NCBI RefSeq assembly: GCF_019204025.1
Contig: NZ_JAGSPB010000002.1
Span: forward strand, 62,001 to 126,000
Direction of reading: 5' to 3'
Source of the DNA: Erythrobacter ani
Lineage (GTDB): Bacteria > Pseudomonadota > Alphaproteobacteria > Sphingomonadales > Sphingomonadaceae
Length of the DNA: 64,000 nucleotides
Made by a program: the position numbers and the translations under genes. Shown here one piece after another: positions 44,144 to 49,135 of this stretch (its first letter is position 1; the number at the start of each line of letters is the position of its first letter). Under the pieces are notes generated by a model. It saw nothing but the letters and a program-made list of their open reading frames with translations, did not search any database and was not told the origin of the DNA.

Positions 44144-44797
44144 CTACCAGCGGATAAGCGGCGGGACGACCAGCCGGCCGATCACTGCTGAAATCGCAAC
44201 CGGGGCGACGTGCCACAGGCCGACATGGGAGAACGTGTCGAGCGGGCAGGTGATGCCGTAGGCCAGCGTTCCCAGCGAACCAGCGGCGAGACCCGTGAGC
44301 CAGCCCGAGCGTTCGATCGAAACCGGAGCGCCGCGGCGCAGCCAAAGGACAGAGGCGATGCCGACCAGCGCGCCCGCCGAGAGCGAGGCAGTCGTGCACA
44401 TGAAGGCGACCGGATCGTTCAACCCTGAACTGGCGTGGGACTCATGCCCGGAGAGCAGGCTGAGCACGGCACCTATCGGCAGGGTCGCAAGCATGGCCGC
44501 GCCCCACATCGGCGCAGTCGCGCGCGCTCCAACCCGAGGCAAAGCGCCCGATACGAGCGAAGCCGTGCTTGCAGCGCCCAAGATGAGCAAAAGGCCGTGC
44601 GTGATCAGGAAGTATCCTGATGCTTCGCCAGTGAGCAGTCCCGACCACCATTCGAACACCGCGATTGATGCAACTGCGGCAACCACAGTGGTAAATGCGA
44701 TAAGCGCTATGCCATCGGATCGCTTAACCCGGCGCACCGGGGTCAGGTCCTCTGTCATGGCGGCGATCAAATCCGCGCGGTTATTGTACTTTTCCAT
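44144..44797 (-). CDS. NrsF/DUF1109-family anti-sigma factor
   Basis: Membrane protein that holds the adjacent ECF sigma factor inactive until the stress signal arrives. The 217 residues carry an N-terminal sequence facing the cytoplasm (MEKYNNRADLIAAMTEDL) and six membrane spans. Two cysteines, Cys134 in FMCTTASLS and Cys184 in GITCPLDTFSH, stand about 50 residues apart. In Caulobacter crescentus the homologue needs two conserved cysteines at similar positions to release SigF upon chromate or cadmium exposure; I recall this from the literature. It starts 1 base after the sigF stop. Confidence 0.92.
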   Translation of the reverse strand: MEKYNNRADLIAAMTEDLTPVRRVKRSDGIALIAFTTVVAAVASIAVFEWWSGLLTGEASGYFLITHGLLLILGAASTASLVSGALPRVGARATAPMWGAAMLATLPIGAVLSLLSGHESHASSGLNDPVAFMCTTASLSAGALVGIASVLWLRRGAPVSIERSGWLTGLAAGSLGTLAYGITCPLDTFSHVGLWHVAPVAISAVIGRLVVPPLIRW

Positions 44798-44798
44798 A

Positions 44799-45329
44799 TC
44801 ATTCAGCTTTCTCGACCAGGGTGGCCATCTTTTTTAGGCCACGATGGATATTCACTTTGACCAGGCTTTCACTTTGCCCGGTCTTTTCGGCGGCTTCACG
44901 GATCGAAAGCCCTCCAATTTTGACCATTTCGATCACCTCTGCCTGCTTTTCCGGTAACTGACCGAAAAGCCGATCGAGGCTGACGCGGGCGAGCACAACT
45001 TCTTCTTCGCTGTCCTGCGCTGCGTCGTCGTCCATCAGTTCCTGACTGTCATGCTTGTAGACCTTACGCAGATGATCGACCCAGCGATATCGCGCGATGG
45101 CTGCAAGCCAAGGCAGAAACGGTCGCGCGGGATCCCAAGTTCCGCGCTTTGTATAAAATGCGATGAGCACCTCTTGAACCAGATCGTCGATCTGATGGGG
45201 TGGCACCCGCCTGCGGAAATACCGCTCCAGCCAGACGCCAGCCTCGGACAGCAACACATTCCCGGCGGCCTTGTCGCCGTTCTGTGTCGCCGCCATGAGG
45301 CGGGCGAAGGTGGGTTCGTCAGCAACCAT
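44799..45329 (-). CDS. sigF: ECF sigma factor, SigF type
   Basis: RNA polymerase sigma factor of 176 residues with only regions 2 and 4. Region 2 has DDLVQEVLIAFY and PWLAAIARYRWVDHLR. Region 4 has LPEKQAEVIEMVKIGGLSIREAAEKTGQSESLVKVN (helix-turn-helix). The pair sigma-NrsF and the neighbouring DoxX and DUF2282/692/2063 genes match the Caulobacter SigF locus, which answers heavy metals. Two copies of a GTAACC-N16-CGAA motif nearby are its likely target. Its start abuts the doxX stop with no gap. Confidence 0.93.
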   Translation of the reverse strand: MVADEPTFARLMAATQNGDKAAGNVLLSEAGVWLERYFRRRVPPHQIDDLVQEVLIAFYTKRGTWDPARPFLPWLAAIARYRWVDHLRKVYKHDSQELMDDDAAQDSEEEVVLARVSLDRLFGQLPEKQAEVIEMVKIGGLSIREAAEKTGQSESLVKVNIHRGLKKMATLVEKAE

Positions 45330-45803
45330 TTATGCGGTCTTCAGGCCCATTACCCTGGCAATCAGGGCGTCGAGCGAGAAGAGCCCGGCTCCGCGGCTCA
45401 GCAAGAACCCGCCAAGACCAAGAACCGTAATCGCCCAGCCAAAGAAGTGTGCTGCATCAGGGAACACGAAGAGCTGGATGACGAGCGCCATGATCATCAG
45501 GGCGAGCGCCGAGAACCGAGTGCCAAGACCCAGTACGAGCAGGATCGGGAAGAAGAATTCTGCATAGGTCGCCATCGGCACCGCCAAATCGGTCGGTATG
45601 GGCAACCCTGAGAATTCGTTCTCGAAAATGAAGTACTGCGTTTCGTCGATTTGCAACCATGTGCCATCGACAACCTTTGTCTGGTAGGACCGCCAGAAAA
45701 TTCCGGCGAGCGCAATGCGAGCGAGCAGCTGCATTATGCTTTCGACAAAGGTGCCTGACAGCAAATCTGTCAAACGGTTATACATCGAAACTAATCCGCT
45801 CAT
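45330..45803 (-). CDS. DoxX-family membrane protein
   Basis: 157 residues with four membrane spans and the DoxX pattern: LLARIALAGIFWRSYQTKV, then a loop, PMATYAEFFFPILLVLGLGTRF and ITVLGLGGFLLSR. DoxX proteins are of uncertain function and are often found with redox or thiol stress genes. A very strong GGAGG site lies 6 bases before the ATG, stronger than that of its neighbours. Second gene of the bufA-doxX-sigF-nrsF unit. Confidence 0.9.
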   Translation of the reverse strand: MSGLVSMYNRLTDLLSGTFVESIMQLLARIALAGIFWRSYQTKVVDGTWLQIDETQYFIFENEFSGLPIPTDLAVPMATYAEFFFPILLVLGLGTRFSALALMIMALVIQLFVFPDAAHFFGWAITVLGLGGFLLSRGAGLFSLDALIARVMGLKTA

Positions 45804-45860
45804 CGTGTTCCTCCTAGATAAGCCATAAATCTTCGGCTGCGCTGCCTCGGCGCAGTCGCT

Positions 45861-46142
45861 TTAGCGTTTGATTTCTTTCAGCGATCCATTGCCTTTAGGC
45901 GTCTTGATTTTCACGCAGGTGCCCTTGTCGACATAGGTCCAGGCATTGCCTTGGTAATCGCGGGTCGATGTTCCGGCGCAGCTTGTACCGGGACCGGCGG
46001 CGCAGTCGTTCTTGCCCGCTTTCGAAACGCCGTAGCATTTCTCTTTCGGACCGGCGGCCGTAACCGGTGTTGTTGCGAGGCCAGCGGCGATGCCCGCGGT
46101 AAGAGCGAGACCCGCGATGTTCGCGATTGTCTTGGCATTCAT
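45861..46142 (-). CDS. bufA: Bufferin-type DUF2282 precursor peptide (BufA)
   Basis: 93 residues. A signal peptide (about 1-30, [20 protein letters not shown]) is followed by a short mature part with exactly four cysteines: Cys36 in KEKCYGV, Cys47 in GKNDCAAG, Cys55 in GTSCAGTS and Cys76 in KGTCVKI, with the DUF2282 signature YQGNAWTYV between. In bufferins, cysteines of such exported peptides are modified by a DUF692 enzyme, and the product binds copper. That modification is inferred here from homology. GGAGA lies 6 bases before the ATG. The likely SigF promoter lies about 60 bases upstream. Confidence 0.9.
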
Positions 46143-46203
46143 GGGTTTTCTCCAGATTTATCAAAAAACTTGCGTCCAGCATCACACCGGACTTGTCAGG
46201 TCA

Positions 46204-46229
46204 TTCGCGCCGGAACACCCGGCGGTTAC
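46204..46229 (-). promoter_or_regulatory. Predicted SigF promoter for bufA-doxX-sigF-nrsF
   Basis: On the minus strand: GTAACC (46229-46224), 16 bases, CGAA (46207-46204). The same two blocks with the same 16-base spacing occur on the plus strand in this gap. Predicted start of transcription is about 46197, giving a bufA leader of about 55 bases. Promoters of this ECF type have a GTAACC-like -35 and CGAA-like -10 as I recall from Caulobacter SigF. Confidence 0.7.
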
Positions 46230-46276
46230 AGAATTTCTGAAAAAATTTGCGGGCCTCTCCCTCGGCTGGGTGATGT

Positions 46277-46302
46277 GTAACCCGGTAGCTCGCCCATGCG
46301 AA
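46277..46302 (+). promoter_or_regulatory. Predicted SigF promoter for bufB-bufC
   Basis: GTAACC (46277-46282), 16 bases, CGAA (46299-46302). It is the divergent twin of the site at 46204-46229; the two -35 blocks are 47 bases apart. Predicted start of transcription about 46309, giving bufB a leader of about 180 bases. Confidence 0.7.
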
Positions 46303-46363
46303 GACCCCCATGTCGGTCGATATGAGGATGTGGAACGCTATTCGGTGATGGGCGCGATGGCAA

Positions 46364-46400
46364 AGGTTGGCGGATCTAATCCGGTGGGCCGCCCTAACCT
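46364..46400 (+). repeat. Hairpin in the bufB leader
   Basis: Arms AGGTTGGCGG (46364-46373) and CCGCC-CT-AACCT (46389-46400) pair over 10 base pairs with a 2-base bulge and a 15-base loop. A 12-base palindrome AGGTTCGAACCT follows at 46422-46433. The AGGTT and AACCT blocks occur twice, so alternative pairings are possible. Confidence 0.5.
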
Positions 46401-46487
46401 GGTGAAGGACGCTCTCGTTGAAGGTTCGAACCTGCCGGACCAGACTGCCACATCGACATTTGCAGGTTTCTGCTATGAAAGAACATC

Positions 46488-47357
46488 ATGACGCAGCATC
46501 ACGACCCCATACGGCCATTCGGCGGCTTCGGACTTGGCCTTCGCAAAACACATTATGACGATTTTCTCGCGGGCCCCGGTGAGGCAGGTGTGCCGGTCGA
46601 TTTCGCCGAAGTCATCAGCGAAAACTACATGGTCGAGGGCGGCCGACAATTGCGAGTTCTCGAACAGGTACGTGAGCGGTTCCCGGTCATCCTTCACGGC
46701 GTGTCCATGTCGATCGGATCGGCAGGTGGGCTCGACACCGATCATCTCGAAAAGCTGAAACGGCTGGAACGCCGGATCGACCCGCTATGGGTGTCTGACC
46801 ACCTGTGCTGGACCCGGACAAGCGCGCATAACAGCCATGATCTGTTGCCTATGCCGCTGACCGAGGCGGCGCTCAGCGCTGTCTGTGCCAACATCGATCA
46901 GGCTCAGGATCATCTCGGCCGGGCCATGTTGTTCGAAAATCCCTCGAGCTATCTCACGTTTCCCGAGGATGATCTTTCCGAGTGGGAATTCATGGCGGAG
47001 ATGACCCGGCGAACGGGGTGCTATCTGCTGCTCGATGTGAACAACATCTACGTAAGTGCGCGCAATCACGGGTTTGCAGCGGAGGATTATCTCGCCGGTC
47101 TGCCGCTCGAACGTATCCGCCAGATACACCTCGCGGGACATGATCCGGCGACCCCTGAACGGGACATCATTATCGATACGCATGACCGTAAGGTCGCGGA
47201 CGGTGTGTGGGACCTCTATGCCAAGGCTATCGCCATGCTGCCTCATCCGGTGGCGACGATGATCGAACGCGATGAGCACATTCCGCCAATAGCCGAGCTG
47301 CTCGCTGAGCTCGACCGTGCGCGCGGGATTGCCGATGAGGCTCTTGTCCCTGCATGA
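46488..47357 (+). CDS. bufB: DUF692 multinuclear iron oxygenase (MNIO), bufferin maturation enzyme BufB
   Basis: TIM-barrel iron enzyme that modifies cysteines of the DUF2282 peptide. The 289 residues have Glu45 in VISENYMVEGG, His70 in VILHGVSMSIGS, SDH at 103-105, Glu150 in LFENPSSYL, Asp183 in LLDVNNIYVSARNHG, HLAGHD at 214-219 and Asp230 in IIIDTHD, the expected set of His, Glu and Asp metal ligands. The precursor gene bufA faces away on the other strand. The stop overlaps bufC by 4 bases. Confidence 0.93.
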   Translation: MTQHHDPIRPFGGFGLGLRKTHYDDFLAGPGEAGVPVDFAEVISENYMVEGGRQLRVLEQVRERFPVILHGVSMSIGSAGGLDTDHLEKLKRLERRIDPLWVSDHLCWTRTSAHNSHDLLPMPLTEAALSAVCANIDQAQDHLGRAMLFENPSSYLTFPEDDLSEWEFMAEMTRRTGCYLLLDVNNIYVSARNHGFAAEDYLAGLPLERIRQIHLAGHDPATPERDIIIDTHDRKVADGVWDLYAKAIAMLPHPVATMIERDEHIPPIAELLAELDRARGIADEALVPA

Positions 47358-48151
47358 GCGAGGCCGCCGATCTCAAGGCACGTCAGGAAGCGTTTCTGCG
47401 CGCCATCCTCGACGAAGGCGCGCCCCTCCCGGAGGATTGGACCAATCGGCAGGCTGCGGGCTTGGCCGTGTATCGTGGCAATTACCGATCGGCTCTTGTC
47501 GGGGCGCTCGAAAGCACGTTCGAACGGACCGCGCGCTATGTCGGTGAAAGCGCGTTCAAACAGGCTAGCGCGCACCACGCGATCACCCACCCTCCGGCGG
47601 GCTGGACCATCGACGAGGTGGGCATCGGTTTCGATGCGACCTGCGCGCAATTGTTCGCAAAGAACCCGGAGGTGGCCGATCTCGCATGGCTCGAATGGAC
47701 AATGCTCCAAGTGGCCACCGGACCGGACGTCGAACCCTTCGGCCCGGGAGCCTTCGCGGAAGCGACCGGCGGGTTCGGTGACGAAGACTGGATGGAGCTG
47801 CGGCTGGAATTCCAGGCGCGATCGTCTGCGCGGATTGTGGAAACCAATTTGACCATCCTTTGGAAAGCGCTCGAAGAGGCGTCAGACCTCGACCGGCCAG
47901 ACCCACGTTTGGCGGAACCGCAAGGTTGCCTCGTCTGGCGTGAGGGCGAGCGTCCAACTTTTCAGTTGCTCGCCCCCGATGCCGTGACCGCCTTTACCGC
48001 AATGCAGGACGGCGCGGCCTACGGGGAAATCGTCACCACGTTCGCTGGCTCCGATCCCGAGCCTGAGCAGGTGCAGGACGCGGCCATGCGCGCCGGTGCG
48101 CTGCTGGGCGAATGGCTCAAGGAAGGGCTGGTTGTCGGCCTGAAGACTTGA
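47354..48151 (+). CDS. bufC: DUF2063 protein, bufferin partner BufC
   Basis: 265 residues. The N-terminal DUF2063 domain (about 1-100) opens with LKARQEAFLRAILD and has LAVYRGNYRSALVGALESTFERTARYVGE. The C-terminal half has LDRPDPRLAEPQGCLVWREGERP. In MNIO systems the partner protein is required with the DUF692 enzyme and is thought to recognise the precursor. Overlap by 4 bases with bufB implies coupled translation and a complex. Confidence 0.92.
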   Translation: MSEAADLKARQEAFLRAILDEGAPLPEDWTNRQAAGLAVYRGNYRSALVGALESTFERTARYVGESAFKQASAHHAITHPPAGWTIDEVGIGFDATCAQLFAKNPEVADLAWLEWTMLQVATGPDVEPFGPGAFAEATGGFGDEDWMELRLEFQARSSARIVETNLTILWKALEEASDLDRPDPRLAEPQGCLVWREGERPTFQLLAPDAVTAFTAMQDGAAYGEIVTTFAGSDPEPEQVQDAAMRAGALLGEWLKEGLVVGLKT

Positions 48152-48196: not shown

Positions 48197-49135
48197 ATGC
48201 TGAGCGACACCTCGATCGAATTGCGCACCGCCAAGCCAAGCTTGCTCATGCGCACAATCAGATGGCTCATGGCGAAGCGCAAGCCCGTCTTTCCGCATAC
48301 AGCACGCGAATTCGAAGCCCATATGGCGCGGCGCGACCTTCCCACTGACGCGCCGATGCCAGACAAGTTCGCGGACAAGTTCACCGTCGAGCGGTGGGAG
48401 GCTGCCGATCAAATGGTCGTGACACTGCACCCGAAGGCTGGTCCCGGTGCATGGCACATGATCTATTTCCACGGCGGCGGCTTTATCCTTCCGATGTTCA
48501 AGGAACACTGGCCGCTTGTCGCTGCGATGGTTGAACGGCTCGGCCTGAGCGTCACGGTTCCGCTGTATGAGGTGGTTCCGGAAAGCTCGCATGAGTTGCA
48601 GGATGACCTCGCCGACGAGGTGTTTGCCAAGCTTGCCGGATCGCACGATCCATCACGCATCATCCTCAATGGCGACAGCGCTGGCGGGCATATGGCATTG
48701 AGCCTGGCCCTGCGATTGGCGCGCGCCGGAGGGCCGCAGCCCGGCAAGCTCGCCTTGTTTGCACCTTGGCTTGACCTAACGATGGCGGACGAAGCCATAC
48801 GCGCTGTAGAGCCGCATGACATCATGCTGAAGATCGGCACCTTGCGCAGTTGCGGCGAGATGTTTGCTGGAGATCGCGACCCGGGGAGCGCGGAGTGCAG
48901 CCCGCTCTATTCGAGCAAGGAAGACCTCGCTCTGTTGCCGCCGACCCGGATTTGGACCGGGCGGCACGATCTCTTCATTGTCGACAGCCGCACTTTCACG
49001 GGCAAGCTGCGCGATGCCGGGATCGACGCGAAGCTTTACGAATATGAGGGAGCGCCGCACGTCTTCATGGCCATAACGCCGACGAAGGAATCCAAGGATA
49101 CCGTGAAGTTGCTCGGTGATTTTCTCGCCGCCTAG
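48197..49135 (+). CDS. HSL-type alpha/beta hydrolase
   Basis: 312 residues. The oxyanion-hole motif is FHGGGFI (92-95), the nucleophile Ser161 lies in NGDSAGGHM, the acid is Asp258 in TGRHDLF and the base His288 in APHVFM, all expected for hormone-sensitive-lipase-like esterases. It follows bufC by 45 bases on the same strand with its own GGAG site, so it may be cotranscribed or independent. Substrate unknown. Its stop overlaps the SDR gene's end by 4 bases (convergent). Confidence 0.9.
   Translation: MLSDTSIELRTAKPSLLMRTIRWLMAKRKPVFPHTAREFEAHMARRDLPTDAPMPDKFADKFTVERWEAADQMVVTLHPKAGPGAWHMIYFHGGGFILPMFKEHWPLVAAMVERLGLSVTVPLYEVVPESSHELQDDLADEVFAKLAGSHDPSRIILNGDSAGGHMALSLALRLARAGGPQPGKLALFAPWLDLTMADEAIRAVEPHDIMLKIGTLRSCGEMFAGDRDPGSAECSPLYSSKEDLALLPPTRIWTGRHDLFIVDSRTFTGKLRDAGIDAKLYEYEGAPHVFMAITPTKESKDTVKLLGDFLAA

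Follow-up and report, generated by a model that had tools for sequence, protein, structure and literature searches.

A sigma-F-linked bufferin locus in Erythrobacter ani and a probable second, lipoprotein-like bufferin

What is the role of a bacterial locus in which the gene for a small cysteine-containing peptide shares an operon with a sigma factor and its anti-sigma factor, while the genes for its maturation are read in the opposite direction, and does such an arrangement represent a special system? We address this question for positions 44144 to 48151 of a 64,000-nucleotide stretch of DNA from the marine bacterium Erythrobacter ani (NCBI RefSeq assembly GCF_019204025.1, contig NZ_JAGSPB010000002.1, positions 62,001 to 126,000 of the forward strand), hereafter the window. 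A first-pass annotation, made from the nucleotide letters, had described these genes as a complete, metal-responsive bufferin locus. We put a probability of roughly 0.75 on the reading that this is a SigF/NrsF-switched Buf1 bufferin system, in which stress would release the sigma factor, BufB and BufC would modify a precursor that chelates metal, and a second bufferin would be co-regulated from elsewhere in the genome. The published accounts cited here are drawn on from excerpts. The features of the locus are as follows:

44144..44797, minus strand: nrsF, NrsF-family (DUF1109) anti-sigma factor (PF06532, 115.1 bits, cut-off 26.8)
44799..45329, minus strand: sigF-like extracytoplasmic function (ECF) sigma factor, 1 nt from nrsF (Sigma70_r4_2, 55 bits, cut-off 25.7; Sigma70_r2, 43 bits, cut-off 24)
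45330..45803, minus strand: DoxX-family membrane protein (PF07681, 54.6 bits, cut-off 23.6)
45861..46142, minus strand: bufA, DUF2282 bufferin precursor (PF10048, 87.4 bits, cut-off 22.4)
46204-46230, minus strand: sigma-F promoter of bufA-doxX-sigF-nrsF, TGTAACC-N16-CGAA, perfect match
46276-46302, plus strand: sigma-F promoter of bufB-bufC, TGTAACC-N16-CGAA, perfect match
46488..47357, plus strand: bufB, MNIO (DUF692) bufferin maturase (PF05114 MbnB_TglH_ChrH, 349.2 bits, cut-off 25)
47354..48151, plus strand: bufC, DUF2063 partner protein, overlapping bufB by 4 nt (PF09836, 56.3 bits, cut-off 27.2)

The strongest evidence for how the locus is controlled lies between its two halves, where a gap of 345 nt holds two sigma-F sites back to back, a feature that the first-pass annotation overlooked. 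Both sites match exactly the sigma-F promoter sequence described in Caulobacter, GTAACC-N16-CGAA (PMC3511200), and both fit the ECF16 consensus, (T/C)GTAAC-N17-CGAA (PMC8315932). Within the window the motif occurs 16 times when up to two mismatches are allowed, and only the locus pair is perfect, each of the other 14 having two mismatches; in shuffled windows the mean was 9.72 and 16 occurrences were reached in 2 of 100 shuffles. One could argue that these are chance matches in a gap between two unrelated transcription units, and the genome-wide counts leave some room for this, as the perfect 10-base pattern is found 16 times against 9 for the reversed pattern, so that a lone site proves little. 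We compared 31 divergent loci, namely 17 from the Erythrobacter group and 14 from NrsF neighbourhoods of the family. On the bufA side, 25 of them carry a perfect site and the other 6 a site with a single mismatch; on the bufB side the match is exact in 12 and off by one base in 18 (the last -35 base in 17 of these), and one locus has two mismatches. Both sites are thus kept at zero or one mismatch, with the same orientation and spacing, in 30 of the 31, the exception being L114, whose bufB side has no good site and whose two-mismatch match is probably spurious. Because the motif bases stay while the bases of the 16-nt spacers vary, the twin sites look like conserved promoters, and it is this conservation, rather than the genome-wide counts, which are not decisive alone, that leads us to reject a chance origin as highly improbable. 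Two conserved promoters accordingly strengthen the proposal that SigF/NrsF governs the locus and that SigF switches on both the operon in which it is encoded and the bufB-bufC pair, and the reading of the motifs as SigF targets on both halves is well supported.

The genes themselves are consistent with this assignment. All six named in the first-pass annotation are present where it placed them and pass the curated Pfam cut-offs, including those for DUF2282, DUF692, DUF2063 and DUF1109, and its classification as a bufferin-type MNIO cluster is borne out by BufB, which exceeds the cut-off of the NCBIfam bufferin-maturase equivalog MNIO_BufB (NF050167; 364.5 bits, cut-off 310). BufB has relatives by sequence in 3BWW, a solved DUF692 protein, in the DUF692 chain 8HCI and in MbnB chains. 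In an alignment of 103 proteins, 21 His, Asp, Glu or Asn positions of BufB are conserved in 101 or more; BufC matches no PDB chain at E values up to 1. The ECF sigma factor also matches TIGR02937 (69.8 bits, cut-off 42.9), and nrsF, sigF and doxX are almost contiguous. The remaining NCBIfam comparisons are less specific: the DUF2063 protein falls below the HvfC equivalog cut-off (22.3 against 142), the DoxX protein is a weak HvfX-like match below that of HvfX (44.6 against 80), BufA matched no NCBIfam family, and NrsF scores 30.4 bits against the 300 required for NF042994, so that by score the window NrsF is a family member and not that equivalog. The predicted four-cysteine peptide is there, with Cys36, 47, 55 and 76, a basic core of net charge +7 and an N-terminus that, judged by eye, resembles a Sec-type secretion signal. 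The two spaced cysteines of NrsF, at 134 and 184, are its only ones and occur without exception in all 90 NrsF proteins that were aligned; they appear comparable to C131 and C181 of the Caulobacter protein, a likeness drawn without aligning that protein, where substitution derepresses the regulon (PMC3511200).

Taken together with what is reported for named relatives, these features suggest the following mechanism. Envelope stress would act on NrsF, with Cys134 and Cys184 as the probable target, and the ECF sigma factor would be released. SigF would then fire the two back-to-back promoters, one supplying the precursor and the switch and the other the maturation pair. BufB and BufC would modify the central cysteines of BufA, 47 and 55, prior to Sec export, in line with the report that the central cysteines are the modified ones in Buf1 clusters, which contain sigma/NrsF genes (PMC12452194), and exported BufA would chelate surplus metal in the periplasm, most likely copper. 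SigF would probably also fire a third promoter, for an unlinked second bufferin described below, and in this way a single BufB/BufC pair might furnish two chelators, one free in the periplasm and one anchored in a membrane.

The signal is the part of this mechanism with the most obvious competitor. Copper induces the Caulobacter SigF regulon and a sigF mutant is copper-sensitive (PMC8224329), and chromium and cadmium induce the sigma-F genes, which do not respond to generators of reactive oxygen species (PMC3511200). However, several published observations weigh against a simple metal-resistance switch with strong feedback: the Caulobacter sigF operon is not strongly auto-regulated and sigF is dispensable for survival of chromium or cadmium (PMC3511200), the homologous gig cluster of Cupriavidus CH34 has no effect on copper resistance (PMC8224329), and other members of the ECF16 sigma/anti-sigma group answer to hypochlorous acid (HOCl) or reactive oxygen and control Msr genes (PMC8315932). 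The last point raises the alternative that the NrsF thiols sense oxidants such as HOCl or reactive oxygen and not metals, the peptide being a thiol or oxidation buffer or being made because oxidants free copper. We regard this as unlikely, given the induction by chromium, cadmium and copper but not by reactive oxygen generators in Caulobacter, and given that a 3.4-kb stretch with the one PF00174 gene of the window genome contains no perfect sigma-F site. A metal signal, as in the relatives, is the more probable reading. The suggestion that the divergent layout creates a positive loop can be kept in part: SigF sites stand before both halves, although a strong loop should not be assumed, because of the reported lack of strong auto-regulation in Caulobacter, and divergence is not needed for it, since sigma-F sites are also frequent in other layouts.

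Is the divergent layout then what makes the locus special? All 17 Erythrobacter-group loci, of 24 compared, are divergent like that of the window, including those of the laboratory Erythrobacter strains NAP1 and E. rubeus KMU-140; among the other seven, from other groups, bufB was found in seven and bufC in six, with no further member of the set found by the queries used. We also chose by hand 60 NrsF neighbourhoods of the family from the list of NrsF places, mostly one or two per genus. Here 14 are divergent as in the window (3 of them from its own genus), 11 have all genes in one operon (one without a detected bufA), 10 have sigF-nrsF surrounded by buf genes in a different order, and 25 have sigF and/or nrsF with no buf gene found nearby. 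The divergent split is therefore ordinary in the family, being only one of several layouts, and as sigma/NrsF-linked Buf1 clusters have already been published, the claim of a special system does not hold on these grounds; taken alone, the window locus is one more member of a published system. As an aside, 19 of the 25 stretches without buf genes (for example L087, L089, L094 and L110) hold a perfect sigma-F site.

What does set the locus apart emerges from the rest of the genome. The description of the locus as complete is right in so far as the six genes are there, but the genome (G000) contains two genes for DUF2282 proteins and a single MNIO gene, and the second DUF2282 gene, unlinked to the locus, was missed by the first-pass annotation:

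G000:C1:778587-778613: perfect sigma-F promoter before the orphan DUF2282 gene
G000:C1:778672-779010 (L011:1585-1923), plus strand: orphan DUF2282 gene, starting 58 nt after the perfect sigma-F site

The core of the orphan is nearly that of BufA, with an identical segment of 15 residues around the central cysteines, and the two differ in that the orphan has a lipoprotein-like N-terminus (LAAAC-S) and an acidic core of net charge -5 against +7. To our reading this is a recurrent pairing. Among 100 genomes of the genus, DUF2282 was found in 64, MNIO in 60 and NrsF in 84, and our own DUF2282 profile, run on stretches around DUF2282 places in the genus, recovered 110 distinct copies, a set that does not include a broken copy in G200. 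Four cysteines lie in the first 60 core residues of 109 copies and five in the remaining one. The locus-linked copies without a lipobox number 64, with net charges from -3 to +9 (median +6), and the unlinked lipobox copies number 37, in 37 genomes, with net charges from -8 to -2. A further five are tandem lipoprotein copies inside the operon, in four genomes, and four are unlinked copies fitting no class, one of which (G258) has unknown bases in its N-terminus. These counts take one copy (G242, L195) as soluble, since its lipoprotein flag came from an over-long open reading frame (ORF). Comparing 64 locus copies with 41 lipoprotein copies, the difference in charge gives p 7e-18, a value that ignores kinship and leaves out the G242 orphan. 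A perfect sigma-F site precedes 32 of the 37 unlinked lipobox copies, and of the 63 locus-linked copies so classed by script 50 have a perfect site and 10 one with a single mismatch. Tandem DUF2282 pairs in three other genera show the same split, one copy of each having a lipobox and a lower charge (-6 against +5 in L120, -4 against +6 in L128 and +1 against +4 in L138). On a tree of the DUF2282 cores, the change between soluble and lipoprotein forms has to be placed at least twice, although the tree is weakly resolved, with 58 columns and 4 starred branches.

The pairing is not without exceptions, and three points count against it. A site at zero or one mismatch is missing from 5 of the 37 orphan genes and 3 of the 63 locus genes. 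The lipobox is assigned by pattern alone, as AAAC, TAGC or LAAC followed by Ser or Gly, strings picked after inspecting the sequences, which fit 37 of 41 unlinked copies, including that of the window genome, and misfit four. The orphan is also absent from 24 of the 60 MNIO genomes, although 4 of these 24 have a tandem lipoprotein copy. This absence, together with the distance of the orphan from bufBC, its acidic charge where BufA is basic and its different N-terminus, would fit an unmodified metal-binding or decoy protein that is co-regulated with BufA without being a substrate of BufB and BufC. We think this rather doubtful, though it deserves to be kept in mind: the segment around the central cysteines is identical in both proteins of the window genome, the lipoprotein copy of the tandem pairs sits within the buf operon, and MNIO is present in 36 of the 37 orphan genomes, the exception (G293) being 88% complete. 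We infer that the same enzyme pair may modify the orphan and that its product may be destined for the membrane. Among the top-ranked matches of literature searches on DUF2282, bufferins or MNIO with lipoproteins or sigma factors, judged beyond PMC12452194 from titles and abstracts, no report of a Buf1 lipoprotein was found.

A second peculiarity concerns where sigma-F sites are placed when the gene order changes. Where the gene immediately after bufC is doxX or sigF, bufC itself contains a perfect sigma-F site. This applies to all 23 such loci, which represent 12 genera, and the site lies 98-155 nt before the end of bufC (227 nt in L120):

Loci of the family set with a site in bufC: L096, L100, L104, L115, L117, L120, L123, L124, L128, L133, L138
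Loci of the window's genus with a site in bufC: L180, L186, L191, L194, L203, L210, L223, L224, L225, L247, L248, L249

In bufC genes of other gene orders there is no perfect site (0 of 53, or 0 of 75 in a broader tally with fragments), and the bufC of the window has no internal one. Nor did the motif occur inside bufC with other spacings (12 to 20). Under each gene's own codon usage the chance of this codon choice gives a product of 10^-44.9 over the 23 genes, which assumes independence although the genes are related. A protein-level cause, a conserved GNLL segment, is insufficient, as the residue before Asn varies (G, C, R or S) while the bases of the motif are constant, and as L120 reads GRLL at this place and has the motif elsewhere in bufC; the corresponding position in divergent loci usually resembles YGEL or FGAL instead of GNLL. 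Perfect sites were also found within ORFs called bufA (32), bufB (2), doxX (4) and sigF (7), probably from over-long starts, ORFs having been called from the first start codon and many extending into the 5' region. Among the top-ranked matches of a literature search on intragenic promoters with these families, no report of a sigma-F site in bufC was found.

We thus conclude that the window holds a real bufferin locus, which is probably part of a two-compartment variant. Beyond this genome, we see about even odds that in sphingomonad SigF regulons a single MNIO/DUF2063 pair serves two bufferins, a basic one free in the periplasm and an acidic one anchored by lipid, an arrangement that perhaps evolved more than once, and that the sigma-F promoters are so strictly kept that one is written into bufC upstream of doxX-sigF, altering the protein there. 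If true, this would show where bufferins work, with metal held in the periplasm and at the membrane by soluble and anchored chelators of opposite charge from one enzyme pair, and the site in bufC would be a clear example from nature of gene order deciding whether a coding sequence holds a sigma-factor promoter.

The analysis also yields a short list of further candidate SigF targets. A gene for a YHS-domain lipoprotein-like protein (G000:C3:143038-143589, minus strand; L023) has a perfect sigma-F site upstream, and in 22 close orthologues, counting this gene, the match is exact in 12 and off by one base in 7, with no site in 3. Across 61 genomes this gene and the orphan bufferin occur together in 20, the YHS gene alone in 2, the orphan alone in 1 and neither in 38 (Fisher p 7e-13, kinship ignored), and in G220 a weaker YHS homologue adjoins a DUF2282 gene. 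A secreted DUF1223 protein (G000:C1:927453-928205, plus strand; L014) is encoded behind (C/T)GTAACC-N16-CGAA, with a similar site in most relatives. Nine genomes in which no MNIO was hit (G208, G212, G215, G219, G235, G236, G237, G238 and G254) have that site too, and two of them, G208 (86% complete) and G254 (73% complete), have no NrsF hit, the -10 element reading CGTA. Because the site is kept in genomes without MNIO or NrsF hits, the DUF1223 gene may be read by another sigma factor that recognises nearly the same motif. The PF00174 (MsrP-type) gene, a candidate by Caulobacter precedent, is unsupported as a target, the sole one-mismatch site on its strand lying far upstream inside another ORF. 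Directly 3' of bufC, an alpha/beta hydrolase gene (PF07859; window 48197-49135, plus strand) is present in 15 of the 17 Erythrobacter-group loci, the two without it being L073, which stops right after bufC, and L074, which stops about 1 kb after it; its position may be mere synteny.

How, then, does the locus compare with known systems? It shares with the Buf1 (DUF2282) clusters linked to SigF/NrsF (PMC12452194) the four-cysteine DUF2282 precursor, MNIO, DUF2063, DoxX, sigma factor and NrsF. Lipoprotein signals are reported there for Buf2, whereas the window genome has a Buf1 copy with a lipobox, unlinked and behind a sigma-F site, and the excerpt mentions tandem and stand-alone precursors without a split into soluble and lipoprotein forms. 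The Caulobacter crescentus SigF/NrsF regulon (PMC3511200, PMC8224329) has the same two-cysteine NrsF, GTAACC-N16-CGAA site and DUF2282-DUF692-DUF2063-DoxX genes. In that regulon, however, sigF-nrsF is read from a separate promoter and the genes CC3254-CC3257 (DUF2282, DUF692, DUF2063, DoxX) form a single operon, whereas in the window bufA and doxX lie within the sigF operon with bufBC divergent, and the PF00174 gene of this genome lacks a clear sigma-F site. The Cupriavidus gig (dax) cluster, up-regulated by gold, silver and copper, has been called the same cluster (PMC8224329), a likeness taken here from its description rather than from sequence. Against this background, it is the lipoprotein twin and the strict placement of promoters that set the locus apart as a variant of the published Buf1 system.

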